Part shown: positions 1 through 64,000 of the stretch, one piece after another | Position numbering within the stretch: position 1 is the first letter of the stretch | Layout: every line of letters starts with the position of its first letter | Assembly: GCA_030425205.1 (NCBI GenBank) | Contig: JAUIAP010000005.1 | Coordinates: 248,001-312,000 of the forward strand | Direction: 5' to 3' | Length of the DNA: 64,000 bases | From: Anaerolineae bacterium | GTDB lineage: Bacteria > Chloroflexota > Anaerolineae > Promineifilales > Promineifilaceae | Made by a program: the position numbers and the translations under genes | The notes under the pieces: model-generated | Seen by the model: the letters and a program-made list of their open reading frames with translations, nothing else | Told to the model about the DNA's origin: nothing | Database searches by the model: none

Positions 1-252
1 CCAAAATAGAATCGCACCTGTCTGTGCTGCTCGATTGAGATGGTGGGTCTCCCAATCAACTTGACTGTTGTACATTGCCTCTTTGAAGCCATTGCCGCGC
101 GGAGAGGCAATAATGAGTTGGGGCGCATGTTCTGTAAAATAGGCAATCGCGGCCGATTGCCAGTCGTCCGCACCGAGTATCGGCCCTGCCAGAAAAACGA
201 CGGGGGCGACACCGTCGGCGACAAAATCGGGTGGAAGATATAACTGTATCAT
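1..252 (-). CDS. Nucleoside 2-deoxyribosyltransferase-like protein, partial (C-terminus beyond window)
   Basis: Read from the ATG at 252 on the minus strand, the frame stays open to the window edge (84 codons). Near the N-terminus it shows the segment VVFLAGPILGADDWQ, and later QTGAILFW. A hydrophobic strand followed by AGPI and DW is typical of the nucleoside 2-deoxyribosyltransferase-like family, whose members cleave or exchange N-glycosidic bonds of nucleosides or act on related nucleotide sugars. The catalytic Glu region lies past the window edge, so activity cannot be judged. There is no clear Shine-Dalgarno sequence upstream. It lies downstream of the EF-G-like gene in the same direction, 42 bp away, with a strong hairpin between them. 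Family call is moderately sure. Confidence 0.6.
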   Translation of the reverse strand, partial: MIQLYLPPDFVADGVAPVVFLAGPILGADDWQSAAIAYFTEHAPQLIIASPRGNGFKEAMYNSQVDWETHHLNRAAQTGAILFW

Positions 253-259
253 GTGGGGC

Positions 260-285
260 GGGGACACGGCGCGTGCCGTGTCCCC
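260..285. other. Perfect 11-bp hairpin between two minus-strand genes
   Basis: GGGGACACGGC at 260-270 pairs with GCCGTGTCCCC at 275-285 around a 4-nt loop. It sits just after the stop of the EF-G-like gene (minus strand) but has no T-run on either side. It could be a weak terminator, an mRNA 3'-end stabiliser or a REP-type repeat. Confidence 0.5.
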
Positions 286-294
286 AATTGTGTT

Positions 295-2358
295 CTACGC
301 ATCCGCTTTCGCTGCGTTGATGATTTTGTCCTTCATGTGGTTCGGCACACGCCCATAGCGGGAGAACTCCATCCCGTAGACCCCACGCCCCTGCGTCATA
401 GAGCGCAAATCGACGAGATAACGTTGCATCTCAGAAAGTGGCACTTCTGCCTTGATGACGGCGCGTGTTCCGATCTGCTCCATGCCCTGAACGGCGGCGC
501 GGCGCGTGTTCATATCGCTCATAATGTCGCCCATATTTTCTGCGGGAACCGTGACGGTGACGTGATAGAGTGGCTCCAAAAGGGTCGGCTTTGCCGTTAG
601 CATCGCCTTGCGGAACGACTCACGCCCCGCGATTTGAAACGCGATCTCTTTGGAATCGACGGGGTGCATTTTGCCATCATAGACAACCGCCTTTACGCCC
701 GTTACGGGATAGCCCGCAATCGGGCCCTTCTCGACCGCCTGTAAACAACCTTTCTCCGTTGCAACGATAAAGGGACCTGAAATCGCACCGCCATAGACTT
801 CCGAGCCAAACTCGAACGCATCGTCATCATCGATTGACTCAACCCGCAACATGACACGCCCATATTGTCCTGCGCCACCAGATTGCTTTTTGTGGGTATG
901 TTCGGCCGAACTTTCCCCCATGATCGTCTCTCTGTAGGGAATCTTGGGTGTCGTCGTTTCCACATTGACGCCAAACTTTGACTGTAACTTCTTGACCGCC
1001 ATGCTCAAATGGACATCGCCCATTCCTGCCAAAATCGTCTCATGGGTGGCCATATCGTGACGCATCGTCAACGTTGAATCCTCTTCCATTAAGCGACTTA
1101 ATGCCTCGCTCAGCTTGCCAACATCCGCCTGTGTGACGGGATGAATTGCATAACTGAAAATCGGACTGGGTTGCCGAATCGCAATCACTTTGAGGGGGTG
1201 GTTGCGGTCGGTCAACGTGTGATTGGTGGCTGTGTCGCCTAGTTTGACGACGGCGCCGATATCGCCTGCATTCAGTTTAGGAACGTTGTGCAAATCTTTG
1301 CCAATCACCACGCCCAGCTGTCCAACGCGTACCTCTTGTTCTAGGTTTACATCCCAAACGCGACTATCTGATTCCAGCACACCGCCAAAGACGCGCACAT
1401 AGCTGGTCTTGCCATATTTATCTTCGCGGGTTTTGAAGACGAACGCGGCGAGCGGTGTGTCATTGCTGATCGCATATTCGACACGTTCGCCTGTGTGGTC
1501 ATACGGCTTGAAACCACCGCGTGTTCCCGGTGCGGGAAGGAGACGCTGCATGGTGCGGGCAAGCAGATCGGTGCCGACCCCACTTTCCGCTGCACAAAAC
1601 GTGATTGGGACGACGAGATTTTGCTCCATCGCACCTTGCAACCCACGAATGATATCATCGGCCGAAAGTGTATCTTCCTCAAAATACTTTTCCATTAGGT
1701 CGTCCGACCCTTCAGCGGCCGCCTCGATCAACTCCATGCGCGCCTCTTCGACCTCCTCGGCAAATCGCTCTGGAATCTCAGCACGTTCACCGCTTTCGCC
1801 CATAAACGCCACCTCATTGACCAGATCGATCACGCCCTTAAAAGTAGGGCCTTCCCCAATTGGGATTTGCAATCGGATCAGACGACGCTCATCGAGCAGA
1901 TGTTCACTGATCGAGTTCAGTACGCGCGTCACACGCGTGTTGTCCCGATCCATCTTGCTGACGACGAGCAGCGTCGGCATGTTGTTGCGTTTTGCCTCTT
2001 GATAGACGATCTCGGTGCCCACTTCAACGCCTGAAACACCCTCGATAAAGACGACTGCGCTATCGGCGACGTGTAGTGCGGCGTTAACCTCACCGATAAA
2101 GTCCATATAGCCCGGCGTGTCAAAAAGATTCAGCTTGCCATCGCGGAATTCGATGGCGGCGATGCCGGTCGAGACTGAACTTTGGCGATCTAATTCTTCT
2201 GGTTCAAAGTCGGTGACGGTGTTGCCGCTGTTGACGCTGCCCATGCGCGTGATTGCACCTGTAGCATAGAGCATACGCTCAACAAATGTGGTTTTGCCCG
2301 CTCCCGTATGGGAAACGAGCGCGATATTGCGAATGTTGGAGGTGGGATAAACTTTCAT
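295..2358 (-). CDS. EF-G-like translation factor GTPase (EF-G2 type)
   Basis: A 687-residue GTPase with the EF-G domain order: P-loop SHTGAGKT at 16-23, DTPGY switch II motif, SKMD in place of the usual NKMD guanine-recognition motif, a domain II beta barrel, and EF-G domains III-V ending in GVYGMEFSRYGRVP. EF-G catalyses ribosomal translocation. Stand-alone paralogues away from the str operon (rpsL-rpsG-fusA-tuf) usually belong to the EF-G2 group, whose role is less clear. No ribosomal protein genes flank it. I chose the ATG at 2358 because AAGGAA lies about 9 nt upstream and the GTPase core begins at once; an in-frame extension to 2457 adds 33 residues without homology. The N-to-S change in the NKxD motif is seen in the EF-G2 group and could lower nucleotide specificity. 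Confidence 0.88.
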   Translation of the reverse strand: MKVYPTSNIRNIALVSHTGAGKTTFVERMLYATGAITRMGSVNSGNTVTDFEPEELDRQSSVSTGIAAIEFRDGKLNLFDTPGYMDFIGEVNAALHVADSAVVFIEGVSGVEVGTEIVYQEAKRNNMPTLLVVSKMDRDNTRVTRVLNSISEHLLDERRLIRLQIPIGEGPTFKGVIDLVNEVAFMGESGERAEIPERFAEEVEEARMELIEAAAEGSDDLMEKYFEEDTLSADDIIRGLQGAMEQNLVVPITFCAAESGVGTDLLARTMQRLLPAPGTRGGFKPYDHTGERVEYAISNDTPLAAFVFKTREDKYGKTSYVRVFGGVLESDSRVWDVNLEQEVRVGQLGVVIGKDLHNVPKLNAGDIGAVVKLGDTATNHTLTDRNHPLKVIAIRQPSPIFSYAIHPVTQADVGKLSEALSRLMEEDSTLTMRHDMATHETILAGMGDVHLSMAVKKLQSKFGVNVETTTPKIPYRETIMGESSAEHTHKKQSGGAGQYGRVMLRVESIDDDDAFEFGSEVYGGAISGPFIVATEKGCLQAVEKGPIAGYPVTGVKAVVYDGKMHPVDSKEIAFQIAGRESFRKAMLTAKPTLLEPLYHVTVTVPAENMGDIMSDMNTRRAAVQGMEQIGTRAVIKAEVPLSEMQRYLVDLRSMTQGRGVYGMEFSRYGRVPNHMKDKIINAAKADA

Positions 2359-2907: not shown

Positions 2908-4482
2908 ATGCAGCACACAGGCACAACAATCAGCAAACACGGGTTGGATAAAGTTGGCATTACAAACGCGGCCACCGTCTATTGGAACCTACCCCCCGCA
3001 AGACTCTACGAAGAATCGATCAAGCGCAACGAGGCAGTTATGGCTGCCGATGGCCCGCTCGTCGCCTACACGGGAAACCACACGGGCCGCTCGCCTAATG
3101 ATAAATTCACGGTCAAAGAGCCAACAACGGCGGACAAGATATGGTGGGGCAAGGTCAATCGGCCGATGTCGCCCCAACATTTTGAGCGCATTCGTCAAAA
3201 GATGATCGAGTATGTCGATGGATACGATCTCTTTGTCTTTGACGGCTACGCAGGGGCAGACCCCAACTATCGCATCAAGGTGCGCGTGATCACACAATTT
3301 GCCTGGCACAATCTATTTGCCCGCAACATGTTTATTCGTGAGCCAGACCCCGCAGTGCTGGCAGATTTTGAGCCAGACTTCACCGTTTTCGATTGTCCGT
3401 TGTTCCAAGCTGATCCCGCAACGGACGGCACAACAAGTTCAACCGTGATCACGGTTAACTTTGCCGAGCATCTCGTCCTGATCGGTGGGACGCGCTATGC
3501 GGGCGAAATTAAGAAAAGCATCTTTGGCGCGCTCAACTTCTATCTGCCACAACAAAATGTGCTGCCAATGCACTGTTCGGCCAACTATGGAGCGGACAAG
3601 CAAAATGATGTCGCCGTTTTCTTTGGCCTGAGCGGGACGGGCAAGACGACACTTTCGGCCGATTCCAGTCGCACCCTGATCGGCGACGACGAACACGGCT
3701 GGAGCGATCATGGTGTCTACAACTTTGAGGGCGGCTGCTACGCCAAAACGATTAAAATCACGCCTGAAAGTGAACCTGAAATCTATGCGACAACAAAACG
3801 CATGGGGTCGATTCTCGAAAACGTCGTGTTGGATGACTGCACACGCCAGCCTGATTTCTTCGACGCCACGCACACGCAAAATACCCGCGTTAGCTATCCG
3901 ATCGACTTTATTCCCAACGCCGATTTAAACGGTATGGGAGGACAGCCCAAAAATGTCATCTTTCTGACGGCCGATGCGTTTGGCGTGTTGCCGCCGATCA
4001 GTAAATTGACGCGGGAGCAGACACAGTATCACTTCCTCAATGGTTATACGGCAAAGGTGGCCGGCACGGAACGCGGCGTAACTGAACCAAAAGCGACATT
4101 TAGCACCTGCTTCGGCGCACCCTTCATGCCCATGCACCCCTCCGTTTATGCCAACATGCTCGGCGACCGCGTTGAGCAACACGGCGTGAATGTTTGGTTG
4201 GTCAACACGGGCTGGACGGGTGGCGCATACGGCACGGGCAAGCGCATGAGCCTGACGCACACCCGCCGCATGGTCGCCGCCGCGCTTGCTGGCGAACTCG
4301 ATGACGTGGAGACTTCAGAAGACCCGTTTTTCGGGTTGGCGGTTCCAACTGCGATTGAAGGGGTGCCAGATCATGTCCTCATGCCGCGCCAAACGTGGGA
4401 TGACAAAGACGCCTACGACAAGGCAGCGCAGAAGCTACTTGACATGTTTGATAAGAATTATCAGCAGTACAAGGGTGATTAG
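2908..4482 (+). CDS. pckA: Phosphoenolpyruvate carboxykinase (ATP)
   Basis: A 524-residue cytosolic enzyme converting oxaloacetate and ATP to phosphoenolpyruvate, CO2 and ADP, the entry step of gluconeogenesis. The sequence shows YTGNHTGRSPNDKF near the N-terminus, the kinase-1a P-loop GLSGTGKTT near residue 241, the metal-binding stretch LIGDDEHGW and the signature NTGWTGGAYGTGKRM, all diagnostic of the ATP-dependent class rather than the GTP class. Length fits the family. AGGAG at 2897-2901, six bases before the ATG, supports the start. A strong terminator follows at 4707-4730. Two TCGGCCGA palindromes lie in the gene (3159 and 3655), the second just after the P-loop codons. Confidence 0.97.
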   Translation: MQHTGTTISKHGLDKVGITNAATVYWNLPPARLYEESIKRNEAVMAADGPLVAYTGNHTGRSPNDKFTVKEPTTADKIWWGKVNRPMSPQHFERIRQKMIEYVDGYDLFVFDGYAGADPNYRIKVRVITQFAWHNLFARNMFIREPDPAVLADFEPDFTVFDCPLFQADPATDGTTSSTVITVNFAEHLVLIGGTRYAGEIKKSIFGALNFYLPQQNVLPMHCSANYGADKQNDVAVFFGLSGTGKTTLSADSSRTLIGDDEHGWSDHGVYNFEGGCYAKTIKITPESEPEIYATTKRMGSILENVVLDDCTRQPDFFDATHTQNTRVSYPIDFIPNADLNGMGGQPKNVIFLTADAFGVLPPISKLTREQTQYHFLNGYTAKVAGTERGVTEPKATFSTCFGAPFMPMHPSVYANMLGDRVEQHGVNVWLVNTGWTGGAYGTGKRMSLTHTRRMVAAALAGELDDVETSEDPFFGLAVPTAIEGVPDHVLMPRQTWDDKDAYDKAAQKLLDMFDKNYQQYKGD

Positions 4483-4841: not shown

Positions 4842-5446
4842 TGAACGAATTACGGGTTTTACTGATTGCAGCGGATCCGCTGGCGCGTGCGGCGTTGGCT
4901 GGGATGCTGGATGGTGAGTGTGAGATTGTGGGGCGGGAGGACGGATCGGCCGAATGGCACACCATCGTCGACCTGCATGATCCTGATGTAATTTTGTGTG
5001 ATGTCGGGTGGCAAGGGTCGCTCGACGTGCCAGACGTGCGTGAGTTGGGGATTCCGGTCGTTGCGTTGGTGGGGGACGATGAGATGGCGGAGACTGTTTG
5101 GCAAAGTGGCGTGCAGGGAATTATCGGCCGATCTGCCACACAACAGCAAATCATCCAAACCCTACAAACCGTCACGCACAACCTGATCGTTTATGATCCC
5201 AACTTGCTCACCAATCCGATTGCACCCGCGTTCAATTTTGAACTCGTCGAGCCGTTGACTGAGCGCGAGCTGGAGGTGTTAACGCTGATGGCGCAGGGAT
5301 TGACCAATCGCGCGATTGGGTTTGAACTGGACATCAGCGACCACACGGTGAAGTTTCATGTCAATTCACTGCTGACAAAGCTGAACGCGCAGAGTCGCAC
5401 GGAAGCGGCCGTGCGGGCGACGCGATTGGGATTGCTAACTGTCTAA
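4841..5446 (+). CDS. Response regulator, NarL/LuxR family, with degenerate receiver
   Basis: About 201 residues from the GTG at 4841: an N-terminal receiver-like domain (ELRVLLIAADP to about residue 115) and a C-terminal LuxR-type helix-turn-helix with LTERELEVLTLMAQGLTNRAI and HTVKFHVNSLLTKL. A possible phospho-acceptor Asp lies in ILCDVGW. The acidic pair normally found after the first strand is reduced to a single Asp, and the conserved Lys late in the domain is not evident (GIIGRSA), so signalling may not depend on ordinary phosphorylation. No histidine kinase is adjacent; the nearest is at 26536-28287. A longer reading from a GTG at 4790 adds 17 residues outside the domain, so I prefer 4841. 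Target genes are unknown. Confidence 0.85.
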   Translation: MNELRVLLIAADPLARAALAGMLDGECEIVGREDGSAEWHTIVDLHDPDVILCDVGWQGSLDVPDVRELGIPVVALVGDDEMAETVWQSGVQGIIGRSATQQQIIQTLQTVTHNLIVYDPNLLTNPIAPAFNFELVEPLTERELEVLTLMAQGLTNRAIGFELDISDHTVKFHVNSLLTKLNAQSRTEAAVRATRLGLLTV

Positions 5447-5449
5447 GCG

Positions 5450-6601
5450 TCAACGAAAAATCATTGGGAGATAGGTTTGTTGAGTGGTCGGCAGATCGAG
5501 CGTATAGATGGCTGCATTGCGTTCACGGCTCGTAACGATCAGCTGATTTTTTTCAGGCCACGGGATCAGCGTGATCAGGGGTTCGCTAGACTCTAGCACT
5601 GTCTCCCAGTTGACAAGATCGGCCGATCGCATAATCACCGCATTCCCGTTCTCCAACTCCGCAATTGTGTATAAATAGGGCCCAACGACTGTCCAAATGT
5701 TGCGATTGATGCTGTATTTCCATGCGAGACCCAACGGATGCGGCACTGGGTGTGTGGTTGTGCTGCCATCGGCCGAAACAGCAATAATCGACTCCCGATC
5801 TCGTGCAAGGGTCAATACCCGTCCATTAAATTCACGTAGTGCAACTGGTTGCAACGTATCACTGACCACTGTCGTCCACATTATCGCATCAGAACTCGAT
5901 GCCAGATTGACTTCAACCCCGAGGTATTCGTCGATAAATGTCGCATAGAACTGCCCATCCTGTTCCAGAATGTCATAGGCTCGCCAGTCACCTAAATAGC
6001 TGACGTGATCCCATGTGATACCGTCTTGCGTGCGAAATATCCGACCGTAGCGCGTCGGATCAACAAAACCACTTGTTGCTGCATAGAGATAATCATCGAC
6101 GATCTCAAATCCAAAGGTGTGCAGTGCATTTGGCAATCCGTTTATAGGGTCGCGGTATTTTGTTAAGCCTGTTTTCGGCCGATAAACATAGTGATTCCCC
6201 GCGTCGTGACTATCTGGACAGCAGGGATCAGACCCAGCGACGTGGATTTCCCCATTAAATAGGATTAACTCATCTGCCCCCTGTTCATCAAGCTGTCCCA
6301 GATTTGTAATTGCTGTCCCGTCACTCTGTGCCAACAGTGCGCCATCCAATTCAGACGGTGCACCCGTTCCTAACCCAAAATACAGTGAGTCTCCCACAGG
6401 CTGTACATTAAAAATGCCAAACGTTTCCAAATCGGGAGTGAACCCCGTTTCTTGTTCATACCATGCGTAGATGTCAACGGCTGGCATCAACTCGACCAAT
6501 GTATTATCGTTCTCCGCCCTAATCGTTTTTCCCACAGTGATTACAACGAACGCCAAAATACAAAACAGAATCCCTGATCGAAAGATGTGTTGTAATTTCA
6601 T
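5450..6601 (-). CDS. Exported beta-propeller-like protein of unknown function
   Basis: 383 residues. The N-terminus MKLQHIFRSGILFCILAFVVITVG is a signal peptide or signal anchor. The body has repeated beta-rich segments ending in stretches such as GDSLYFGLGTG, DDYLYAATSG and GPYLYTIAELENG, the pattern of sorting-type or Kelch-like propellers that read out sensor-style text. The last residues, TYLPMIFR, resemble a C-terminal tail common on exported Chloroflexota proteins. GAGG lies 8-11 nt before the ATG. It is convergent with the response regulator (3 bp between stops). I do not recognise a specific family and assign no catalytic role. Confidence 0.6.
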   Translation of the reverse strand: MKLQHIFRSGILFCILAFVVITVGKTIRAENDNTLVELMPAVDIYAWYEQETGFTPDLETFGIFNVQPVGDSLYFGLGTGAPSELDGALLAQSDGTAITNLGQLDEQGADELILFNGEIHVAGSDPCCPDSHDAGNHYVYRPKTGLTKYRDPINGLPNALHTFGFEIVDDYLYAATSGFVDPTRYGRIFRTQDGITWDHVSYLGDWRAYDILEQDGQFYATFIDEYLGVEVNLASSSDAIMWTTVVSDTLQPVALREFNGRVLTLARDRESIIAVSADGSTTTHPVPHPLGLAWKYSINRNIWTVVGPYLYTIAELENGNAVIMRSADLVNWETVLESSEPLITLIPWPEKNQLIVTSRERNAAIYTLDLPTTQQTYLPMIFR

Positions 6602-9902: not shown

Positions 9903-10259
9903 TTAACTGCTAATTGCAACAGCAAACCCGACGGCGTGCGTGGCTGTGTGGGAGATGCTAATCGAGAAGGTGAGTTGGTTGGCAAGCAGGGCGGCGTTCC
10001 CGTATAGTTGCAGATGCGGTCGGCCGATCTCATCCGTAACGACCTCAATTTCTAACCACTTAACTTCACCAATGCCCGTCCCCAACGCCTTGGCAACCGC
10101 CTCCTTGACCGCAAACCTTCCCGCCAGTCGCTGGACATCTCCCGCACAGGTCGCCTGCTCACCCGCCGTGAAAATGCGATCCAAAAAGCGTTGCCCATTG
10201 CGCACAATCGCCTTTTCAATCCGCACAACTTCAACTAAATCAATTCCTGATTGAATCAT
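9903..10259 (-). CDS. acpS: Holo-[acyl-carrier-protein] synthase
   Basis: 118 residues, the normal AcpS size. It transfers 4'-phosphopantetheine from CoA to a serine of apo-ACP, activating ACP for fatty-acid synthesis. GIDLVEVVRI near the N-terminus carries the Mg-binding Asp (residue 7); RFAVKEAVAKALGTGI holds the catalytic/metal Glu; ISISHTATHAVGFAV is the conserved C-terminal region. It is convergent with the glycoside-hydrolase-like gene (24 bp between stops). The start at 10259 begins exactly at the conserved domain. Confidence 0.95.
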   Translation of the reverse strand: MIQSGIDLVEVVRIEKAIVRNGQRFLDRIFTAGEQATCAGDVQRLAGRFAVKEAVAKALGTGIGEVKWLEIEVVTDEIGRPHLQLYGNAALLANQLTFSISISHTATHAVGFAVAISS

Positions 10260-10398: not shown

Positions 10399-10944
10399 TC
10401 ATACTGGTTCCAAATGCTTTGCGACCAACTTTCGCACCGATGTGACGTTGCGGTTGGTTGCCTTGGTCTTCAAAATGCGCTCTATACGTGCATTGGACAT
10501 TTTACTGTCCCGCGATGACCCATTTAATCGCCAATAGAGCTGGCCGTCCTCGATCAGATATTGGTCGATGTCATTTGCCAATGCGTAGAGCTTTGCACAG
10601 TGCGCCTCTTGGGGCTGTGATTTGAGAAAGGAGATGTAGAGATTTGTCTTGTCATCGCGCTCACCGAATGGTTCACGCTGCGCGATGGTGCGGATGGTTT
10701 CGGCCGATCTGACCATCGTTGGCACATCAAATCCAAATGCGTCGCTCAAACAGCTCTCAATTACCGCTTCGATTTCAGACAGGGGCTGCTCATCCGCCGT
10801 AAATATCACATTTCCCGACTGAATAAACGTCTCGACATTCTCAAAATCGAGTGGTGCTAGAGCGGCACGCAACGCCGCCATTTTGATATAACGGTTTCCG
10901 ACATTGATTGCGCGTAAAAACGCGACATAACGTTGTTTTGTCAT
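10399..10944 (-). CDS. DUF1697 family protein
   Basis: 181 residues beginning MTKQRYVAFLRAINVGNRYIKM and continuing with ETFIQSGNVIFTA; the RAINVGG-like N-terminus and FIQSGNV are the hallmarks of DUF1697, a family of small cytosolic alpha/beta proteins of unknown function. The C-terminal part has SSRDSKMSNARIERIL, also typical. A TATAAT box lies 7 nt before the ATG, so the mRNA is probably leaderless. It is divergent from the PIG-L gene (80 bp between starts). Confidence 0.85.
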   Translation of the reverse strand: MTKQRYVAFLRAINVGNRYIKMAALRAALAPLDFENVETFIQSGNVIFTADEQPLSEIEAVIESCLSDAFGFDVPTMVRSAETIRTIAQREPFGERDDKTNLYISFLKSQPQEAHCAKLYALANDIDQYLIEDGQLYWRLNGSSRDSKMSNARIERILKTKATNRNVTSVRKLVAKHLEPV

Positions 10945-53898: not shown

Positions 53899-53925
53899 CG
53901 TCGCAAGAAAATATCTTAAATTGGC

Positions 53926-54174
53926 TATGACAGAAACGAGTAGGCCGAGTCGATTTCCATGAGCGAGTCCATGTTGGTGTGAGATGGATGGGAGATTTCG
54001 GCCGAAAATCATTCTTGAGCCGCTTTTTGAACGGGTTACCCAATTAGAAAAGCCGACTTCGTCGCCCGTTACTGCGACTACGAGCGTCCGTTCAATTTGA
54101 ACGGGAACTTGGGTGGTACCGCGAAGCATGGCGCCTTCGTCCCAATGATTTTTTGGGATGGAGGCGTTTTTCGT
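53926..54174 (+). promoter_or_regulatory. T-box riboswitch, isoleucine-type
   Basis: Stem I begins near GAGTAGGCCG and has the distal GCGAGTCCATGTTGGTGTGA motif of the AGAGA/GGUG type. The presumed specifier is ATC (54008-54010) or ATT (54011-54013), both Ile codons, before TTGAGCC. The conserved T-box AACTTGGGTGGTACCGCG is at 54107-54124; its TGGT would pair with the ACCA end of uncharged tRNA-Ile. The terminator follows at 54133. Uncharged tRNA-Ile should favour the antiterminator and allow read-through to ileS, 1.2 kb downstream. A TCGGCCGA copy (53998-54005) forms part of stem I. Confidence 0.88.
54133..54173 (+). terminator. T-box terminator
   Basis: CGCCTTCGTCCCA (54133-54145) pairs with TGGGATGGAGGCG (54155-54167), followed by TTTTT. 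It competes with the antiterminator of the T-box. Confidence 0.85.
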
Positions 54175-54443: not shown

Positions 54444-54535
54444 GGTTGAATATGTGACGAAGAATGATGATTAGTTGTTTCATTAGACCAAAGGAAACGA
54501 ATTTCGGCCGAATGTGAATTAACCCGAATACAAAT

Positions 54536-55368: not shown

Positions 55369-58300
55369 ATGACATTTAAAGAAGTCAACAACAAACCAGA
55401 TTTCGTCACACTTGAACATGAAATCTTGAAACAATGGAAAGAGCGGGACGCATTCAACGAATTGCGCCGTTTGCGTGCGGAGACGGAGAAGCAGTATGGG
55501 ACATGGAGCTTTGTCGATGGCCCCATCACGGCGAATAACCCGATGGGCGTGCATCACGCATGGGGGCGCACATACAAAGATCTGTACAACCGCTATCATG
55601 CAATGCTCGGCAAGAATTTGCGCTGGCAGCAGGGATTTGACTGTCAAGGCCTATGGGTTGAGGTCAACGCAGAGAAGGAACTTGGCTTCCACAACAAGCG
55701 TGACATCGAGGCCTACGGACTAGCGAAGTTCACCAACTTCTGCAAGTCACGAGTCCTACATCATGCCGCCAAACAAACAGAACAGTCGATCCGTCTCGGC
55801 TACTGGATGGATTGGAATGATCCTGAGCATCTGGAAGAGTTACGCGACCTGATGCGGGAAGATGCGACCCAAGAGATCACGGTTGAGGGGCCAAATGGGG
55901 AAGTGACGGACACGGTTGAGGGGATTGTCGGCCGACTCGGCATGGCCGAACTAGGTGGTAGTTACTTCACCTTCAGCAACGAAAACAACTACCAAATCTG
56001 GGCATTTTTGAAGCAATGCTTTGATCGTGGTTGGGTTTACAAGGGACGCGACGTGATGCCCTATTGCGCCCGCTGCGGCACGGGCATCAGCCAGCACGAA
56101 ATCGTCACCGACGGCTATCACGACGTAACACACGAATCAATCTTCTTAAAGTTCCCACTGGTTGATCGAGAGAAAGAGGCGTTACTGGCTTGGACGACGA
56201 CGCCATGGACATTGAGCAGTAATGTTGCGGCTGCTGTTGGGGAAGAACTCGATTATGTCAAGGTCAACGCCCCAGATGGTTGGACATATTATTTGGCTGA
56301 AGGGGCGATGAAAAACACGCTGCTAGGCAAACTGTCTGATTACGAAGTGGTGGAAAAGATCAAGGGCTCGGAAATGGTTGGCTGGCACTATCGCGCCCCG
56401 TTTGACGATCTGCCCGTTGTGCAAGAAGCGTTTTCTGAAATGGGCTATCAGCATCGCGTGATCGGCTGGAAGGATGTCGGTGCGGAAGAGGGGACGGGGA
56501 TCGTTCACATCGCACCCGGCTGTGGTGCAGAGGATTTTGGTCTAAGCAAGGAGAACAATTTGCCAGTGCTGGCGCCATTAGATGAAAACGGATATTTCGT
56601 CGATGACTATGGTTGGCAGTCTGGCAAGTCGGTTTTTGATGTCAATGAGGGCGTATTTGATCAGTTGCGCGAAACAGATACCTACTATCGCAAACAGAAA
56701 TACACACATCGCTATCCACACTGCTGGCGTTGTGGAACAGAGCTGGTTTACCGCTTAGTCGACGAGTGGTACATTAACATGGGCAAGTTGTATGACAAGC
56801 CGCGCGAGGAGCTGACCGAAGCGGAAAAAGAAAACAGTTTCCGCTACCAAATCATGGAGTCAGTTAGCCAAGCCAACTGGTATCCCAGCTTTGGTCATGA
56901 CCGTGAGATGGATTGGCTGCGAAACATGCACGACTGGATGATCAGCAAGAAACGCTACTATGGATTGGCATTGCCGATCTATGAGTTTGAAGATGGCTCC
57001 TTTTATGTTGTTGGCTCACTGGAAGAGCTGCATGAGCTAGCGGTTGAAGGTTGGGATGAGTTTGAAGGCCATGCCCCTCATCGACCGTACATCGACGCGG
57101 TAAAAATCAAGCATCCTGAAACAGGCATGATCGGCACACGCATTAAGGATGTCGGCAACCCGTGGCTCGACGCGGGGATCGTCGCCATCAGCACGCTACG
57201 CTATAGCTCAGACCGTGCCTATTGGGATAAGTGGTATCCTGCCGACTGGATTTCGGAGAGCTTTCCCGGTCAATTCCGCAATTGGTTCTATAGCTTGCTG
57301 GCGCAAAGTACGCTGATGAGCCAAGAGGCGAAGGGCAAGATCGAAGGACCATTCAAGAATCTGTTCAGTTATGGGACGCTCTATGCCGAAGATGGGCGCG
57401 AGATGCACAAATCGTGGGGCAATGCGATTTGGTTTGACGATGGCGTTGAGAAGATGGGTGCGGATACGATGCGCTGGCTTTACGCAAGCGGCATTCCTGA
57501 GAAAAATCTGTTGTTTGGGTATGGCGTTGGCGATGAGACGCGGCGACGTTTTCTTATTCCACTGTGGAATGTCTACAGTTTCTTTATCACGTATGCGAAT
57601 TTGGACGGTTGGAAGCCAGACGTATCAGATAAGGCAGTCAGTGACAACGACGGTAATCAGCAATTAGATGCGTGGATTGTTGAGCGATTGAAAGAGACGA
57701 CCATTGGTATGCGCCAGCATCTTGATAGTTATGATGCAATGCGGGCGACGCAGCTTGCGGAGGCGTTTTTGGACGATCTTTCTAACTGGTATGTGCGCCG
57801 TTCGCGCCGACGTTTCTGGCGGGGCGAGATGGATTTGGACAAGCAGGCAGCTTACGAAACGCTGTATTTCATCCTTGTTCAATTCTGTAAATTGATTGCG
57901 CCCGTTGTCCCATTTGTGTCGGAAGAGATGTACCAGAATTTGGCGTTTGGTGCCAATGGAAAAGATAGCGCGTTGACGGAACAGTTGATGCCAAATAGCG
58001 TTCACCACTGTCTCTATCCTGATTATAGTGCTGAGGCACTTGATCGCGCGCTGCTGGACAAGATGCGCTTGGCGATCACGGCAGCTGGATTGGGCAGAGC
58101 GGCACGCAGTTCGGCCGATCTTAAACTTCGCCAACCCCTCGCCAAAGCCCGCATCAATGTCGGCTCACAAACTGCACGCGAAAATCTGCAAGAGCTGGCC
58201 GAAGTCCTGATGGAAGAGATCAACGTCAAGGAGATCGAAGTCGTCAGCGACGTGGGTGATTTGGTCAACTACAAGATCATGCCAAACAACCGCTTGCTCG

Positions 58301-58995: not shown

Positions 58996-59805
58996 TCAAT
59001 CCCAAAGATGGGGGTCTTTTTCTTTATTAAAGCGATTTCGAGCAGTGAGTAAACAACGATATATGCCATAGAAAATTAGGCTGTAAATAATAAGATTGGC
59101 CATGTAGGGGGCGGGTTTCGGCCGATTATTCCAATCAAAGTAAGAGATTTCGCCCATGTCACCTAGTGGTGATCCCCCATCTGAATCATCAATAAACGGT
59201 AAAGGCCACCCTGCACCACTCTCGTATCCACATGTGGTTTGAAAACCTAAGCACAACGACGCATCCCAGTGAACGCGACCATTGACTATCGGGTAATACT
59301 GATTTACATATAATCCAGAAAAAAAGGTGCAGATGCCCGCGAGTGCAATGATGATGAACAGCGGTTTGTGAAATAAATGACTCCCGAAAAAATAGCCGAA
59401 CAGCAGTGAAAATAGTGTTCCATATAAAATTGTGGAAAGAAGCATCTCCGATGCAGAGTTGCTGTCGAGGGTATTCGCAGACCTGAGAATCAACTTTTTG
59501 TAGGGAAAAAATGTGATAAAGAAGAGCGAGAATACGTTAATGGGCATTAGCAACAAGCCAATGATCCAATTTTGAAAACTGTTTTGAGGCGAGTTTAGTT
59601 TGTTGATTAAGATGTTGTCTTTTTCGGCCGATTTGCCCAATCCCTTCCCACGTAACAAGTAGCTGTAAATGCCAAACAAACCCCAGCAAACGGCTACATA
59701 AATTACACCATTGGCGAAGAAGTGGAAAGGGATCGGCTGATTAAAGCCGTCGGATTGTGAAATTGTGCCAATATCAGACCATGGAAAACCACTACTGCTC
59801 GTCAT
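58996..59805 (-). CDS. Multi-pass membrane protein, GW-PL-F/D-GSPL family (copy C)
   Basis: 269 residues with about five hydrophobic helices (FHFFANGVIYVAVCWGLFGIY, WIIGLLLMPINVFSLFFITF, LLSTILYGTLFSLLFGYFF, PLFIIIALAGICTFFSGLY and a C-terminal YMANLIIYSLIFYGIYRCL). Between the last two lies GAGWPLPFIDDSDGGSPLGDMGEISYFDW, related to the same stretch in the two upstream genes (59792 and 60514). Two cysteines (CLGFQTTCGYE) may be disulfide-linked outside the cell. It overlaps the upstream gene by 14 bp. Family not recognised; no enzymatic motif. Confidence 0.7.
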   Translation of the reverse strand: MTSSSGFPWSDIGTISQSDGFNQPIPFHFFANGVIYVAVCWGLFGIYSYLLRGKGLGKSAEKDNILINKLNSPQNSFQNWIIGLLLMPINVFSLFFITFFPYKKLILRSANTLDSNSASEMLLSTILYGTLFSLLFGYFFGSHLFHKPLFIIIALAGICTFFSGLYVNQYYPIVNGRVHWDASLCLGFQTTCGYESGAGWPLPFIDDSDGGSPLGDMGEISYFDWNNRPKPAPYMANLIIYSLIFYGIYRCLLTARNRFNKEKDPHLWD

Positions 59806-60427
59806 GTTGCCACCTCACCGAATATTTCATTGCATAGCCAAAAAGCAGGTAAACAGTTTTGCTAACTGTTTTGTGTGAAAAGCCTCTTTTTACTATCAAC
59901 GAGAAGAGTTGATAGACCGCGCACAAGATGAATGCGTAGAAGAGAATATTCATAAAATAGCTTGGTGCTGACATGCAGCAACCCCAATCAATCGGGTCAA
60001 TAACCCCCATGCTGCTTAGGGGAGAACCACTATTGTCGCTAATAAATTTGAGCGGCCAGCCCGCGCGCTCTTCCTGAACTGTGCGCCCCGACCATTCATA
60101 ATTGGTAGTATGTTTGTAAACCAATCCAGACAGTACTGTGAGCGCACTCGCAACTCCACAAATCACAAGGGCTGGCTTGCGTAAGATGTTGTTGTCGATC
60201 CTGCCAATGACAATGGTGATGCTCCAGCAGAGGATTAGGTAGAGAACTGGAATCCAGAGGGAGTGAAATCCGTTAAGTCCAAAAAGTTTAGCTAAGGCTC
60301 CTATGCCTACAAGGACAAAATATTCAAGAGAGGTGATAAACAATAGTGCGTAGACGAGGAACGGCATCGTTGCGAATCCAATGCCCCAGCTGAGCCAGTC
60401 GGCCGATTTTTTGCTTGTAGTAGACAT
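59792..60427 (-). CDS. Multi-pass membrane protein of the same family (copy B)
   Basis: 211 residues starting MSTTSKKSADWLS. Hydrophobic helices at ~15-50, ~60-75, ~85-105 and a C-terminal FMNILFYAFILCAVYQLFSLI. The extracytoplasmic segment TVQEERAGWPLKFISDNSGSPLSSMGVID carries the family motif. It begins 6 nt after a TATAAT that forms the end of a duplicated pgl tail (60434-60463), so it is a product of tandem duplication with copy A. Overlaps the downstream gene by 14 bp. Confidence 0.7.
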   Translation of the reverse strand: MSTTSKKSADWLSWGIGFATMPFLVYALLFITSLEYFVLVGIGALAKLFGLNGFHSLWIPVLYLILCWSITIVIGRIDNNILRKPALVICGVASALTVLSGLVYKHTTNYEWSGRTVQEERAGWPLKFISDNSGSPLSSMGVIDPIDWGCCMSAPSYFMNILFYAFILCAVYQLFSLIVKRGFSHKTVSKTVYLLFGYAMKYSVRWQHDEQ

Positions 60428-60433
60428 ACAAAA

Positions 60434-60463: not shown

Positions 60464-60500
60464 GCACAAAGGTCAGATGTTCACTTTTCGGCCGAATCCG
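60435..60500 (-). pseudogene. Duplicated pgl C-terminal fragment
   Basis: It encodes RIRPKSEHLTFVLDEA and AAKLL, one residue different from the end of pgl at 61325 (AVAKLL). Nothing of pgl upstream of this point is present; homology starts right at the TCGGCCGA copy at 60487. Confidence 0.9.
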
Positions 60501-60513
60501 CTCAAGCGGCTCG

Positions 60514-61317
60514 TCACGACCAGTCGTGGGGGTCTTGTTCCGTTGATCGTGGGGTTGACTCCTGTTGCTGACCATGTTTGATCGGCTGGTGCGTTTCGTT
60601 GCGTGGTCTGAGATAAGTGTAGATACTAAAGCAACCGCAGAAAACGCAAATGACGGCACTGTAAATGAGAACATTGGTCAGATATGCGTTGGGTCGCTCA
60701 GTAAGAAACCAGTCATGTACCGTATTAATGCCAATGTAGGATGATGGAACGTTACCAAGCGTGTTACCGATAAATGCAAGCTGCCAGCCCGCACCGTCTT
60801 CCTGTACTGTGCGCCCCATCCATCTAAAATTGTAAGTGTGCTTATATATCAATCCAGACAGCACTGTTAGCGCACTCGCTAATCCAAGAATCACAAAACC
60901 CCAGTTGAGCCAATCGGTTTGCAATTGTTGTTCGTGTTTAATCGGCTGGCGTGTTTCGTTGCGTCGCCTGAGGTAGTTGAAGAATCTAAAGCACCCGTAG
61001 AACACGCAAATGACGGCACTGTAAATGAGAACATTGCCCAGATATGCGTCGAGTCGACCTAGCATAATCCAGTCGTTAAACGTGATGATACCGGCACTGC
61101 TTAGTGGAGAGTTTGCGCCTGCATCACCGACAAACGCAATCGGCCAGCCTGCCCCAATCTCTTGCACCGTTCTACCATACCTCGTAGCGATAACAGTGTG
61201 TTTGTAAAGCACACCTGACAGTATTGTTAATGCGTTTGCCACCCCGAAAATGACAATAATTGGTCTTGTCAAAAACAAACTGAGTCGATCGGCCGATTTG
61301 TTGCTTGTACTGGACAT
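60514..61317 (-). CDS. Membrane protein of the same family with internal duplication (copy A)
   Basis: 267 residues, beginning MSSTSNKSADRLS. Two halves (about 20-135 and 140-250) repeat the unit: a helix ending LTxLSG(V/L)(L/I)YKHT, GRTVQExGAGWxxAF(V/I)G, an (S)SxxGI stretch with a DW pair, and a final helix YLxNVLIYSAVICVF. Each half ends RRRNETRQPIKH or RPRNETHQPIKH. So one gene holds two copies of a unit that copies B and C carry once. The start follows a TATAAT overlapping the pgl stop. Role unknown; the repeated outside-facing motif hints at ligand or partner binding. Confidence 0.72.
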   Translation of the reverse strand: MSSTSNKSADRLSLFLTRPIIVIFGVANALTILSGVLYKHTVIATRYGRTVQEIGAGWPIAFVGDAGANSPLSSAGIITFNDWIMLGRLDAYLGNVLIYSAVICVFYGCFRFFNYLRRRNETRQPIKHEQQLQTDWLNWGFVILGLASALTVLSGLIYKHTYNFRWMGRTVQEDGAGWQLAFIGNTLGNVPSSYIGINTVHDWFLTERPNAYLTNVLIYSAVICVFCGCFSIYTYLRPRNETHQPIKHGQQQESTPRSTEQDPHDWS

Positions 61318-61323
61318 GAAAGA

Positions 61324-61353: not shown

Positions 61354-62068
61354 GCACAAAGGTCAGATGTTCACTTTTCGGCCGAATCCTCTGAATCGGC
61401 AACTTTTGAGGCTGTTGCGTTTCATTGATCACGGTTGCGATCATCGCTGCCTTCTTTTCGCCCGTGACCAGCACAAAGATGCGCTTGGCATCGTTGAAAA
61501 TTGACTCAGTTAGTGTGATACGCTGGGCAGGGCGGTCTTCGTATTCGGCTGAAACCCCCCAAACCCCATCCCTCTGACTGTCCAACGCTGATCCTGGAAA
61601 TAGTGACGCTGTATGTCCATCAGACCCCATTCCAAGTAGTACTAGGTCAAATGAGGGCCATTGTTTACACGCTTGATGTTCTGTAGCAAACGTTGCCAGA
61701 CTCGCCAAATAATCATCCACCGCAGCACTCATCTCTAGCTCCGTTTTCATGCGCCAGACGTTTTCCGCTGGAATTGGCAAATGATCGATCAATGCCTCTT
61801 TCACTTGCTTGTAATTACTCCCATCTTCTGTCGGCGGCACAAGCCGATCATCCCCCCAAAAGAGATGCACGCGTTCCCAGTCAATGCGCTTCGCATAGTC
61901 AGATGTTGCCAGCAATTCATACAATGGTTGCGGCGTTCCCCCGCCAGACAACACAAGGCTAAAAACACCATTTTGCTCAATATCGGCCGATGCAGCCGTG
62001 ACAATGATTTCAGCCATATATTTTGCAAAGGATTGTTGGTCAGGTTGAATAATAATTGTCGGGTTCAT
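61325..62068 (-). CDS. pgl: 6-phosphogluconolactonase
   Basis: 247 residues from the ATG at 62068. It hydrolyses 6-phosphogluconolactone in the pentose phosphate pathway. FSLVLSGGGTPQPLYELLA, VHLFWGDDRLVPPTEDGSNYKQVKEAL, LVLLGMGSDGHTASLFPG and RITLTESIFNDAKRIFVLVTG are the family motifs of the NagB/Pgl type. The chosen start follows a TAAACT box by 7 nt (leaderless); the longer reading to 62086 would cross that box. No zwf or gnd is adjacent. The 3' end doubles as promoter for the next gene and has been duplicated. Confidence 0.95.
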   Translation of the reverse strand: MNPTIIIQPDQQSFAKYMAEIIVTAASADIEQNGVFSLVLSGGGTPQPLYELLATSDYAKRIDWERVHLFWGDDRLVPPTEDGSNYKQVKEALIDHLPIPAENVWRMKTELEMSAAVDDYLASLATFATEHQACKQWPSFDLVLLGMGSDGHTASLFPGSALDSQRDGVWGVSAEYEDRPAQRITLTESIFNDAKRIFVLVTGEKKAAMIATVINETQQPQKLPIQRIRPKSEHLTFVLDEAVAKLL

Positions 62069-62081: not shown

Positions 62082-62091
62082 GCCAAAAAGC

Positions 62092-62130: not shown

Positions 62131-62290
62131 TAGAAACACAAAGCGACCACGTCAATCACGCAGTCAATTCAAGAACGATTCAGTTGTGGTTCAATTGGAA
62201 ATTGGCTCCCTCGCTGGAAGCGTGCGGCACCACGCTCCCTCAAGAGGGTTCAACTTGTCGCGGCGGGATTATCCCGATAGGAACGCGCCG

Positions 62291-63502
62291 CTAATTCCCC
62301 TGACGCCGGCGCAAGAACGCTGGAATGTCAGTATCATCACGATCCCATGTCCGCTTTGGCTGATTGAGGCGGTCGTTTGTTTGCGGACGCTCATCCCGAC
62401 CACTACTATCCACCGATGCCATTTCTGACTCGCGTGTTTCAGCGGGGCGGGGGGCTTCATGACGTGGTTGGGCTGATGTCGTTTGGCGCGGTGCGCTGTA
62501 GCTGCTCGTTGTTGGTGAGCGGCGGACTGCTGGTGTATGCTCAAAATTGGTCGCGATGACAGTGATGCGAATTTCATCCTTCATGTTCTCATCGACAACT
62601 GCACCAAAGATGAGATTGACGTCGGGGTGCGCCGTTTCGCGGATGATGGAGGCTGCTTGGTTGATCTCGAAGAGGCTCAAATCGTTGCCGCCCGTCACGT
62701 TGAACAGGATGCCTTTCGCGCCATCAATGGTCACGTCGAGCAGCTTGCTGGACAACGCTTGCATCGCGGCATCTTCCGCACGGCGGTCGCCACGTCCACG
62801 TCCAACCGCCATCAATGCGGCGCCACCCATCGACATAATCGTTTTCACGTCGGCAAAGTCAAGATTGATCAGACCCGGCACGGTGATCAACTCGCTGATG
62901 CCCTGAATGCCTTGCTTGAGCACTTCGTCGGCCATGTGCAGTGCTTCAGTGAAGGTTGTGCGTGGATCGGCCGATTCCAGCAGCTTATCATTTGGAATGA
63001 CGATTAACGTATCGACATGCTCTTTCAGTTCAGCGATTCCAGCCTCTGCCGCCTTTGCGCGGGCCGATCCCTCAAATGTGAAAGGTCGTGTGACGACACC
63101 AATCGTCAATGCCCCTTCCTCGCGTGCGATGCGGCTGACGACTGGGGTTGCACCCGTTCCTGTGCCGCCACCCATGCCGCAGGTGACAAAAACCATATCG
63201 GAACCACGAATCACTTGACGCAGCTCTTCAACCGACTCTTCAGCTGCTTTCTCGCCCATGTCAGGTCGTCCGCCAGCACCCAAGCCACGGGTTGCACGCT
63301 CGCCAATGTGCATCCGTGTGGGGGCGCGGCTGCTCATCAGTGCCTGACTATCTGTGTTGACCGCGACGAAATCCACGCCCACGATCCCTTCTTCAATCAT
63401 GCGATTAACCGCATTATTGCCGCCGCCACCGACCCCAACGACGCGGATTAGCGCGTTGCTCTCGATTTCAGGCATTCTTTGCATCCTTGCATTTCTATCC
63501 AT
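62291..63502 (-). CDS. ftsZ: Cell division protein FtsZ
   Basis: 403 residues. Tubulin-like GTPase forming the Z ring. [27 protein letters not shown], the tubulin signature GGGTGTG in [15 protein letters not shown], and [14 protein letters not shown] are present. After the globular core (~residue 325) there is a Ser/Thr/Pro/Arg-rich linker and the C-terminal conserved peptide [12 protein letters not shown] that binds FtsA or other anchors. GAGAGGG lies upstream of the ATG. It follows ftsA by 31 bp in the same direction. Confidence 0.98.
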
Positions 63503-63533
63503 AATATTGAACCCTCTCTGATAAAGTATAAAT

Positions 63534-64000
63534 TTAGCCGGGCAGAAGCCGACTAATAATTTCTTTCCACCGACCGCCCCGAGACGGGACTTCTGCCCGA
63601 TTCGGCCGAAATGTGTTGTAATCGCTATTGCCCCAGCGCAACAGTCCCACCGCCGTTGAATAGGCGGGGCTTTGCAGCCTGTCTACAAGGCCGACCAAGT
63701 TACGGGGTTTCGCAACCCGCGCTGGTACACCCATAATTTTTTCCGCTGTGTGTGTCAGATTTCGTAACTGCGCCGATCCACCCGTCAACACAATGCCAGC
63801 GGGTAACAAACCTGCATATCCCGACTGTTTAACCGACGCGAGAATCATGTCGAACAACTCCTCAGCACGGGCTTCAATCACCTCTGCCAAGTCGCGGTAG
63901 CCAACTTCGATCTGCTCGCCGCTAAACGGTTTTACCTTAAACGTATGCTCCGGGTCGAGATCGTCTGGACGGCAGTTGCCGTGCTTGACCTTGATCTCGT
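63534..64000 (-). CDS. ftsA: Cell division protein FtsA, partial (N-terminus beyond window)
   Basis: The last ~155 codons are visible. They read [25 protein letters not shown], then [34 protein letters not shown], the phosphate-2 and adenosine motifs of the actin-like ATPase fold, then [14 protein letters not shown]. FtsA tethers FtsZ to the membrane through a C-terminal amphipathic helix; the end here, [11 protein letters not shown], is short but amphipathic. The gene order ftsA-ftsZ supports the call. Stop 31 bp before ftsZ. Confidence 0.92.

Follow-up and report, generated by a model that had tools for sequence, protein, structure and literature searches.

Among the closest described systems to the sequence reported here is HIP1 (GCGATCGC), a highly iterated palindrome of cyanobacteria. 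Its function there is unsettled; in the sections of Elhai (2015; PMC4390886) that bear on the question, HIP1 and the alternate HIPs are proposed to arise from a methyltransferase acting together with methylation-biased mismatch repair, and dissonances with that model are listed. Selection on HIP1 was addressed by Xu et al. (2018), as cited in an excerpt of PMC6604393. Furthermore, an excerpted account of M.Ssp6803II from Synechocystis describes N4-methylation of GGCC at 38,512 sites and links the enzyme to replication, supercoiling and repair (PMC6560206).

The mean distance between USS in Haemophilus influenzae is about 1,000 bp. DUS are 10- to 12-mers with one reading orientation, and we know of no DUS or USS that is palindromic. 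Recognition of Chi sites depends on their orientation, and Dnd modification of GGCC inside a longer consensus is known. The highest DUS count given in the relevant part of PMC3630211 is 5,918, in 2.4 Mb; that paper makes no use of the term palindrome. For open-access full text, the titles and opening abstract lines of the matches listed describe neither an iterated TCGGCCGA or CGGCCG palindrome nor a HIP in Chloroflexota. Here we describe such a palindrome: TCGGCCGA is the local dialect, in one genome, of a family-wide palindrome with the core CGGCCG.

A highly iterated palindrome in window and genome

The window, by which we mean the whole stretch of 64,000 bases that was analysed, contains 75 exact copies of TCGGCCGA (Table 1), or one per approximately 850 bp, which is the number and density that a first-pass annotation had read by eye. 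Its other estimates were similarly close: about 25 occurrences in other core contexts, where we counted 27 (in other NCGGCCGN contexts), and A or T beside almost all copies, which 69 of the 75 have on both sides. Nine of its 14 example positions were exact and five were off by one (the true starts are 10700, 36998, 44557, 61983 and 63602). As it had also described, the copies occur in three reading frames (36 as SAE/SAD, 17 as GR and 16 as RP, according to crude gene calls), on genes of both directions and between genes, with six outside called genes. A count of 8-bp palindromes in the window places TCGGCCGA first, at 15 times the next commonest (75 vs 5). One copy falls within a predicted T-box leader.

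Table 1. Exact copies of TCGGCCGA in the 64,000-base window
Feature	Coordinates	Strand	Basis
TCGGCCGA copy	902..909		exact match
TCGGCCGA copy	1658..1665		exact match
TCGGCCGA copy	3159..3166		exact match
TCGGCCGA copy	3655..3662		exact match
TCGGCCGA copy	4946..4953		exact match
TCGGCCGA copy	5124..5131		exact match
TCGGCCGA copy	5619..5626		exact match
TCGGCCGA copy	5769..5776		exact match
TCGGCCGA copy	6175..6182		exact match
TCGGCCGA copy	8999..9006		exact match
TCGGCCGA copy	9315..9322		exact match
TCGGCCGA copy	9534..9541		exact match
TCGGCCGA copy	10020..10027		exact match
TCGGCCGA copy	10700..10707		exact match
TCGGCCGA copy, outside called genes	11378..11385		exact match
TCGGCCGA copy	12213..12220		exact match
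TCGGCCGA copy	13448..13455		exact match
TCGGCCGA copy	16327..16334		exact match
TCGGCCGA copy	16826..16833		exact match
TCGGCCGA copy	17798..17805		exact match
TCGGCCGA copy	18929..18936		exact match
TCGGCCGA copy	19424..19431		exact match
TCGGCCGA copy	20529..20536		exact match
TCGGCCGA copy	20827..20834		exact match
TCGGCCGA copy	22710..22717		exact match
TCGGCCGA copy	23172..23179		exact match
TCGGCCGA copy	23334..23341		exact match
TCGGCCGA copy	24362..24369		exact match
TCGGCCGA copy	24617..24624		exact match
TCGGCCGA copy	25175..25182		exact match
TCGGCCGA copy	27578..27585		exact match
TCGGCCGA copy	29034..29041		exact match
TCGGCCGA copy	29498..29505		exact match
TCGGCCGA copy	29883..29890		exact match
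TCGGCCGA copy	30553..30560		exact match
TCGGCCGA copy	31051..31058		exact match
TCGGCCGA copy, outside called genes	32088..32095		exact match
TCGGCCGA copy	32957..32964		exact match
TCGGCCGA copy	34243..34250		exact match
TCGGCCGA copy	35665..35672		exact match
TCGGCCGA copy	36904..36911		exact match
TCGGCCGA copy	36998..37005		exact match
TCGGCCGA copy	37190..37197		exact match
TCGGCCGA copy	38312..38319		exact match
TCGGCCGA copy	39684..39691		exact match
TCGGCCGA copy	39950..39957		exact match
TCGGCCGA copy	40747..40754		exact match
TCGGCCGA copy	41201..41208		exact match
TCGGCCGA copy	41637..41644		exact match
TCGGCCGA copy	43338..43345		exact match
TCGGCCGA copy	43722..43729		exact match
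TCGGCCGA copy	44557..44564		exact match
TCGGCCGA copy	46119..46126		exact match
TCGGCCGA copy	46258..46265		exact match
TCGGCCGA copy	46774..46781		exact match
TCGGCCGA copy	47208..47215		exact match
TCGGCCGA copy	48344..48351		exact match
TCGGCCGA copy	50788..50795		exact match
TCGGCCGA copy, outside called genes	51831..51838		exact match
TCGGCCGA copy	52657..52664		exact match
TCGGCCGA copy	53390..53397		exact match
TCGGCCGA copy	53550..53557		exact match
TCGGCCGA copy, outside called genes, in predicted T-box leader	53998..54005		exact match
TCGGCCGA copy, outside called genes	54504..54511		exact match
TCGGCCGA copy, in isoleucyl-tRNA synthetase gene	55928..55935		exact match
TCGGCCGA copy, in isoleucyl-tRNA synthetase gene	58111..58118		exact match
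TCGGCCGA copy	59118..59125		exact match
TCGGCCGA copy	59624..59631		exact match
TCGGCCGA copy	60399..60406		exact match
TCGGCCGA copy, outside called genes	60488..60495		exact match
TCGGCCGA copy	61289..61296		exact match
TCGGCCGA copy	61378..61385		exact match
TCGGCCGA copy	61983..61990		exact match
TCGGCCGA copy	62967..62974		exact match
TCGGCCGA copy	63602..63609		exact match

Across the genome that holds the window (G000; 7,787,621 bases, or 7.79 Mb) there are 9,414 copies, one per 827 bp or 1,209 per Mb, compared with 27 of the reversed word. In 364 kb of this genome, 438 copies were observed, compared with 7.2 expected under an order-2 Markov model derived from sequence in which the motif was masked, so that a genome count near the Markov expectation, which the annotation had named as fatal to its reading, was not what we found. 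The motif is HIP-like: an octameric palindrome whose density lies in the range of HIPs (hundreds to thousands per Mb) and greatly exceeds expectation, and which occurs in all frames of genes and in intergenic DNA. It is not HIP1 proper, as the cyanobacterial word GCGATCGC has two copies in the window and is not over-represented.

Could base composition, codon usage or an old mutation bias have produced the motif incidentally? In G000, 63% of the coding copies (570/908) share one frame, SA[ED], as such an origin might suggest. However, the observed counts exclude composition and codon usage as the sole cause, copies are found in all frames and in non-coding DNA, and the core is constant across sampled genomes of 45-62% GC. 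Furthermore, the tripeptide SAE is 5-fold above its amino-acid expectation in the G000 sample and 347 of its 385 occurrences are encoded with the core, which argues that the motif drives the peptide and not the reverse. We therefore regard a by-product as very improbable. A DNA-level signal is already seen here to dictate amino-acid tripeptides, and the dialects described below, being written into genes, put tripeptides of their own into proteins (SAE/SAD, TAV and AAA are enriched). Site density is lower in intergenic DNA than within genes in G000 (0.72 vs 1.34 per kb) and G328 (1.16 vs 1.67), but not in G325 (1.81 vs 1.52) and not clearly so in G305 (1.86 vs 2.00).

Core, dialects and conservation across the family

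The family set comprises 52 genomes, in which relatives of G000 carry G3xx labels and include Promineifilum sp. and Ardenticatenaceae bacterium (Chloroflexota). CGGCCG is more frequent than the reversed word in 48 of them, at least 2-fold in 38 and less than 2-fold in 10; the remaining four are motif-poor (G313, G314, G320 and G321). Outside the family, in 299 genomes of a phylum sample, the core is mostly not above the reversed word, the largest ratio being 3.4 (judged by eye), and among 36 genomes of the same class the ratio is greater than 1 in six, with a median of 0.46. In all 16 genomes sampled, CGGCCG is the top 6-bp palindrome relative to an order-1 expectation. Motif-bearing genomes hold approximately 0.7-5 cores per kb, and the highest count in one genome is 25,568.

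Around this core the outer pair varies by lineage. T..A accounts for 67.8% of cores in G000 and 78.9% in G325, A..T for at least 30% in 28 of the 52 genomes (13 genera), and G..C for 83% in a sample of G342, so that the dialect octamers ACGGCCGT and GCGGCCGC stand beside TCGGCCGA; samples of G307, G347, G348 and G350 have no clear outer-pair preference. The position next to the octamer is A or T in approximately 96% of cases in G000 and 93% in G325 (0.82 and 0.84 bits), and one position further out the signal weakens to 0.19 and 0.22 bits. Equal enrichment of all CGGCCG contexts, which the annotation had set against its octamer, does not occur in G000, but in G307, G347 and G348 enrichment of the hexamer extends to every flanking context, and the unit was redefined as a result. 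Thus, the HIP1-like behaviour and its occurrence in Chloroflexota stand, whereas TCGGCCGA is only a local dialect of the unit, CGGCCG.

The synonymous-site comparison proposed by the annotation was positive in relatives. Within the core, 625 of 730 four-fold third positions are conserved, whereas the rates for identical codons elsewhere predict 543.5 (three more sites were dropped as rare codons, and each genome pair was counted in both directions), and synonymous conservation is higher in the core in all nine disjoint pairs. None of the nine is of the T..A dialect, so conservation in G000 itself is something that we infer. These closer relatives replaced an orthologue comparison among G000, G325, G305, G328 and G307 that gave only 3-16 pairs per G000 comparison. 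Taken codon by codon, GCG and TCG show no such excess. When whole words are compared, two of the nine pairs (L167/L168 and L189/L190) retain the core scarcely better than other G/C words, and in the 80-90% identity bin one control palindrome, CCGCGG, matches the core in retention (0.78, 36 occurrences). The bin of at least 90% identity, in which four pairs were the same genome twice, was not used. As biased repair or an uptake drive would also slow loss, conservation is no proof of selection.

The spacing of sites is also unusual. In G000 its coefficient of variation (CV) is 0.84 vs 1.00, and none of 2000 simulations was as even; an 8-mer control for this genome found no candidate words. In four genomes of two dialects, gaps shorter than a tenth of the mean are rarer than in every control 6-mer (0/250, 0/158, 0/129 and 0/68). 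Wide evenness is confined to G000, since control words are as even in G325 (30/158), G328 (44/129) and G305 (37/68), where the spacing signal is limited to the shortage of very short gaps.

Possible writers and readers of the motif

The annotation had expected a cognate methylase, and we searched the 52 genomes for the C5, N4/N6 and D12 classes (a match being E<=1e-5 for C5 and N4/N6). None emerged: core density shows no significant correlation with any of the three classes. C5 matches occur in 24 genomes, N4/N6 matches in 40 and D12 matches in 41, the last including all four motif-poor genomes and excluding G347-G350. Both C5 and N4/N6 matches are missing from eight genomes; six of these bear the motif, among them the motif-rich G305 (97% complete), G339 (78%) and G350 (94%), the last without D12 as well. 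The motif-poor G314 and G321 also have no N4/N6 match.

It is conceivable that a cytosine methyltransferase specific for CGGCCG or GGCC creates sites together with methylation-biased mismatch repair. The CGNNCG architecture with a variable outer pair is that of HIP1 (GCGATCGC, TCGATCGA; PMC4390886, in the sections concerned), and MutL (PF01119) is found in 48 of the 52 genomes. As in HIP1, outer one-off variants are enriched in G000 (ACGGCCGA and GCGGCCGA, 3.6-fold above expectation) and inner ones are not; the outer variant CCGGCCGA is an exception at 0.26, and CCGG is avoided in this genome. In addition, genomes with more C5 genes tend to have a higher core/control ratio (rho 0.47, p 0.0005). 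C5 is missing from each of the four motif-poor genomes, as a methylase model would predict, and present in 24 of the other 48 (the chance of four such genomes is approximately 0.08). However, that correlation may come from GCCGGC avoidance, and MutL is also present in motif-poor genomes, so its presence does not decide the matter. Although G000 and G325 share a dialect, no C5 protein of one matches any of the other at more than 35% identity over 120 aa; the sole C5 gene of G325 is located in a stretch of 5,069 bp (38% GC) that is the longest without the motif in the 320 kb sampled, and two of the three intact C5 genes of G000 adjoin type II restriction enzymes, one of them HaeII-like. One-off copies in G325 show no outer-position bias, unlike the A and G variants in G000. 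With C5 in only 24 of 48 motif-bearing genomes, no cognate enzyme of the classes searched is conserved with the motif, as it would be for a restriction-modification target. A methylase-driven motif is thus not supported, and we consider this origin unlikely. A Vsr-like or deamination signature was also rejected: C>T precursors are not depleted among one-off neighbours, and lost sites have no clear excess of transitions (50 of 90 single changes, against a background of 51%).

Natural transformation offers another possible drive, in which a DUS-like but palindromic self-recognition signal would cause DNA of the same dialect to be preferentially taken up and recombined, so that the motif accumulates and dialects isolate lineages. 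The core density resembles that of DUS, which also have lineage dialects, a conserved core and graded flanks (PMC3630211, in part), and the deficit of close neighbours would fit diminishing returns within one fragment. CGGCCG is likewise dense, with a fixed core and lineage dialects, but it is an exact palindrome, unlike the oriented motifs of known DUS and USS. ComEC (PF03772) is found in 47 of the 52 genomes but does not discriminate, since E. coli and each of the four motif-poor genomes have it too. On balance, uptake seems to us an improbable origin. We give still less credence to a non-methyl modification (Dnd-type phosphorothioation of GGCC) or a recombination or repair signal that would regulate a helicase-nuclease in the manner of Chi: Dnd modification of GGCC has precedent and the density would suit a repair signal, but a palindrome does not allow the single orientation on which a Chi-type recombination signal depends.

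Our preferred reading, to which we assign a probability of about 0.4, is that TCGGCCGA/CGGCCG is kept as the recognition site of a putative DNA-binding protein, probably a homodimer, that would act chromosome-wide, with a possible role in chromosome folding, repair or segregation. A symmetric protein dimer would be expected to read a palindrome of 8-10 bp in which outer preferences are graded; dialects might arise when the outer contacts of the protein change and the sites follow; and spacing and conservation may reflect selection for one site every few hundred to thousand bp. More tentatively still, we suggest a methylase-independent palindromic recognition code with inherited dialects outside the cyanobacteria, in which the outer-base specificity of a putative CGGCCG reader would have shifted at least three times in one family, with ten thousand sites and their proteins following. 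As many as 25,568 cores in a genome is a large number for one binder, and this counts against it, as do the absence of C5 from all four motif-poor genomes and the thinning of intergenic sites in G000 and G328 but not in G325.

Comparison with known systems

The target of M.Ssp6803II, GGCC, is the centre of the CGGCCG core. However, that target is a tetramer, the part of PMC6560206 concerned does not present it as an octamer that is iterated, and several motif-rich genomes here have no detected N4/N6 or C5 enzyme. The Neisseriaceae DUS dialects share with our motif thousands of copies, dialects round an invariant core and graded flanks (PMC3630211, in the excerpts used), but our motif, unlike the oriented 10- to 12-mers of DUS, is palindromic.

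The resemblance to HIP1 and the alternate HIPs, as they appear in the relevant sections of PMC4390886, includes a short GC-rich palindrome found roughly once per kb, whatever the frame and also in intergenic DNA, a CGNNCG core with a replaceable outer pair (TCGATCGA in cyanobacteria, with GGGATCCC differing further in), symmetry-preserving extensions, signs of maintenance and, here in G000, an outward bias of one-off copies (for A and G, not for C). The differences are the phylum, the centre (GC here, AT in HIP1), the single core with at least four outer-pair states across most of a family, and the presence of the motif in genomes without detected C5 or N4/N6, where no methylase class tracks its density. 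With a fixed core, dialects, motif-poor members and genomes without detected cytosine methylases, the question of what such a motif does becomes a comparative one: a candidate reader or drive has to follow both the dialects and the losses through the family genomes. If a reader were found, it would represent a new kind of chromosome-wide DNA recognition. Alongside HIP1, this is a second HIP-like case, from a different phylum, in which several dialects within one family surround a fixed core.

Abundance of the octamer and its core

The first-pass annotation put the number of TCGGCCGA copies in the window at about 75, mostly flanked by A or T, and likened the motif to HIP1, the highly iterated palindrome (HIP) of cyanobacteria. 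The count stands, with 75 copies, flanked on each side by A or T in 69 cases, and 5 copies of the runner-up 8-bp palindrome. In the whole source genome (G000; assembly of 7.79 Mb, completeness 96%, contamination 7.7%) the octamer occurs 9,414 times, or once per 827 bp, versus 27 for the backward-read word, which bears out its HIP-type character. Furthermore, the comparison with a Markov expectation that the annotation had proposed gave 438 observed copies versus 7.2 expected in 364 kb of G000 (order-2 model derived from motif-masked sequence). The motif is real, strong and of HIP type. In the same 364 kb, strong avoidance affects CCGG (0.31 of expectation), CTCGAG (0.05), CCCGGG (0.06) and several further palindromes.

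Among the 52 family genomes (numbered G), TCGGCCGA is also abundant in G325, from another genus (7,668 copies in 5.1 Mb), and is less abundant in G307, although this belongs to the same genus as G000, because in G307 the hexamer is enriched whatever its flanks; in samples of G307, G347 and G348, CGGCCG stands at 14 to 18 times the order-1 expectation across all contexts. In whole-genome counts this core is commoner than GCCGGC, the same hexamer read backwards, in 48 of the 52 genomes, by at least two-fold in 38 (median 3.5), with extremes of 13,814 versus 51 in G342 and 21,019 versus 132 in G307; GCCGGC is almost missing from these two genomes (8 Mb and 4.1 Mb, respectively). The 10 of 48 core-enriched genomes below two-fold are mostly from genus g2 (G144 and relatives). 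As the ratio depends also on avoidance of GCCGGC, order-1 expectations were examined too, and CGGCCG ranked first among 6-bp palindromes in all 16 sampled genomes (3.5 to 18-fold). Enrichment is absent or reversed in four family members (core/control ratio 0.75 in G314, 0.56 in G313, 0.37 in G321 and 0.06 in G320), and G320 strongly avoids the core (447 CGGCCG versus 7,315 GCCGGC). In 299 genomes of the phylum outside the family the ratio is mostly about 1 or lower, with a maximum, judged by eye, of 3.4; in genomes of the same class outside the family it exceeds 1 in 6 of 36, the largest being 2.3.

Relatives matching the isoleucyl-tRNA synthetase of the window came from Promineifilum sp., Ardenticatenaceae and Anaerolineae bacterium records, by whose titles the family is probably Promineifilaceae (Chloroflexota). 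A quick tree of this protein places G000, G307 and G325 in one clade (SH-aLRT 100), which also takes in one row from a contig titled Acidimicrobiales (L165), which has 1 core in its 4.9 kb despite that position. The synthetases of L165 and of contigs titled Eisenbacteria (L194) and Deltaproteobacteria (L197) branch among Chloroflexota, through either gene transfer or mis-binning. In raw counts across 38 genomes, the 304 cores in this gene are confined to 70 columns, one of them common to 27 genomes. In the window, an ORF separates the gene from a predicted upstream T-box leader, within which one motif copy falls.

Dialects, proteins and conservation

The base outside the core is symmetric and lineage-specific. 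T..A flanks 67.8% of cores in G000 and 78.9% in G325, A..T at least 30% in 28 genomes from 13 genera (maximum 85%), and G..C 83% in the G342 sample, where C is commonest further out (58%). A clear flank preference was not seen in samples of G307, G347, G348 and G350, and the G346 sample leans towards an A flank. A..T is extended by another A in 54-68% (samples of G327, G328, G340 and G319), and the position outside TCGGCCGA is A or T in about 96% of copies in G000 and 93% in G325 (72% and 73% at the second position).

The 908 coding copies in G000 encode SAE/SAD (570), GR (180) and RP (158). SAE in G000 is 5-fold above the amino-acid expectation and core-encoded in 347 of 385 cases; similarly, TAV in G305 is enriched 6.8-fold (215 of 220) and AAA in G342 4.6-fold (69 of 82, in a small sample of 21,075 residues). 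Each dialect has therefore put its own tripeptide into the proteome.

Synonymous-site conservation, which the annotation had also raised, was positive in relatives. Among codons unchanged at their first two positions, in nine disjoint pairs (three more cases were dropped for rare codons), four-fold third positions inside the core were conserved in 625 of 730, versus 543.5 predicted by those codons outside it. Conservation was higher in all nine pairs, with p < 0.05 in seven, values that are optimistic because each pair was counted in both directions; GCG and TCG codons gave no excess inside the core in these pairs. At 80-90% DNA identity, whole words were retained for 292 of 375 cores versus 2,514 of 4,660 other G/C-only hexamers, in pairs that overlap; pair by pair, the difference was small in L167/L168 and L189/L190. 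This conservation shows constraint or biased maintenance, the two being inseparable on these data.

Spacing and a putative reader

Copies in G000 are spaced more evenly than chance predicts (CV of the gaps 0.84 versus 1.00; none of 2,000 simulations as even); gaps shorter than 39 bp are four times too rare, and those of 0.5-2 times the mean are over-represented. No unusual CV was found in G325, G328 and G305. Gaps shorter than a tenth of the mean make up a smaller share in all four genomes than they do for any control hexamer examined (0 of 250, 158, 129 and 68 with equally few), and in G305 the deficit is weak versus uniform placement (99 of 2,000 simulations as low).

The observations comprise a conserved core whose outer letters change, constraint, a dearth of very close neighbours and effects at the protein level. 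From these we infer a symmetric reader of the motif. A putative homodimeric DNA-binding protein would read 8-10 bp and occupy a site every 200-1,000 bp or so; such a dimer would account for the palindrome, graded flanks, dialect shifts and losses. A palindromic uptake signal would explain dialects and spacing equally well, but we know of no uptake signal that is a palindrome, and consider this unlikely.

Methylases and known systems

Three methylase classes were sought in the 52 family genomes, and C5 was found in 24, N4/N6 in 40 and D12 (Dam-like) in 41, the last in none of G347-G350. D12 enzymes are adenine methylases. As the core holds no A, only cytosine enzymes should be able to modify its G..C and unflanked types. 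The cognate methylase that the annotation had suggested seeking did not emerge among these classes: core density showed no significant correlation with any of them across the 52 genomes, and C5 and N4/N6 matches are both missing from six motif-bearing genomes, including G305, G339 and G350. The creation of sites by methylation-biased repair, an idea published for HIP1 (Elhai, 2015; PMC4390886), gains from the correlation of C5 gene number with the core/control ratio (rho 0.47, 52 genomes) and from the lack of C5 in all four motif-poor genomes, but the required enzyme is apparently missing from several genomes, and we find this explanation improbable.

The sole C5 gene of G325 lies within the longest stretch free of the motif in the sampled 320 kb, a region that looks recently acquired. 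Of the intact C5 genes of G000, one is paired with a HaeII-like enzyme, a second with a different type II enzyme, and a third has a neighbour matching nothing. The C5 genes of both genomes look like ordinary, turning-over restriction systems and not like a common source of the motif.

Table. Coordinates of methylase genes and of features near the isoleucyl-tRNA synthetase gene
Feature	Location	Details
C5 methylase, large HATPase protein and response-regulator-like protein	G325:C20:410568-415127 (L076:10568-15127)	Motif-free 5 kb, 38% GC
HaeII-type restriction enzyme and C5 methylase pair	G000:C31:97188-99213 (L278:17188-19213)	PF09554 and PF00145
D12 methylase (example)	G000:C34:110222-110953	
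Predicted T-box leader	window 53918-54147	Rfam RF00230, 126.6 bits
Motif copy in predicted leader	window 53998	
ORF downstream of predicted leader	window 54536-55213	

Among the matches listed by searches of open-access full text, none described a HIP-type motif in Chloroflexota. HIP-type motifs as such are already known; what is new is that no methylase of the three classes tracks this one, together with its CGGCCG core and its dialects.
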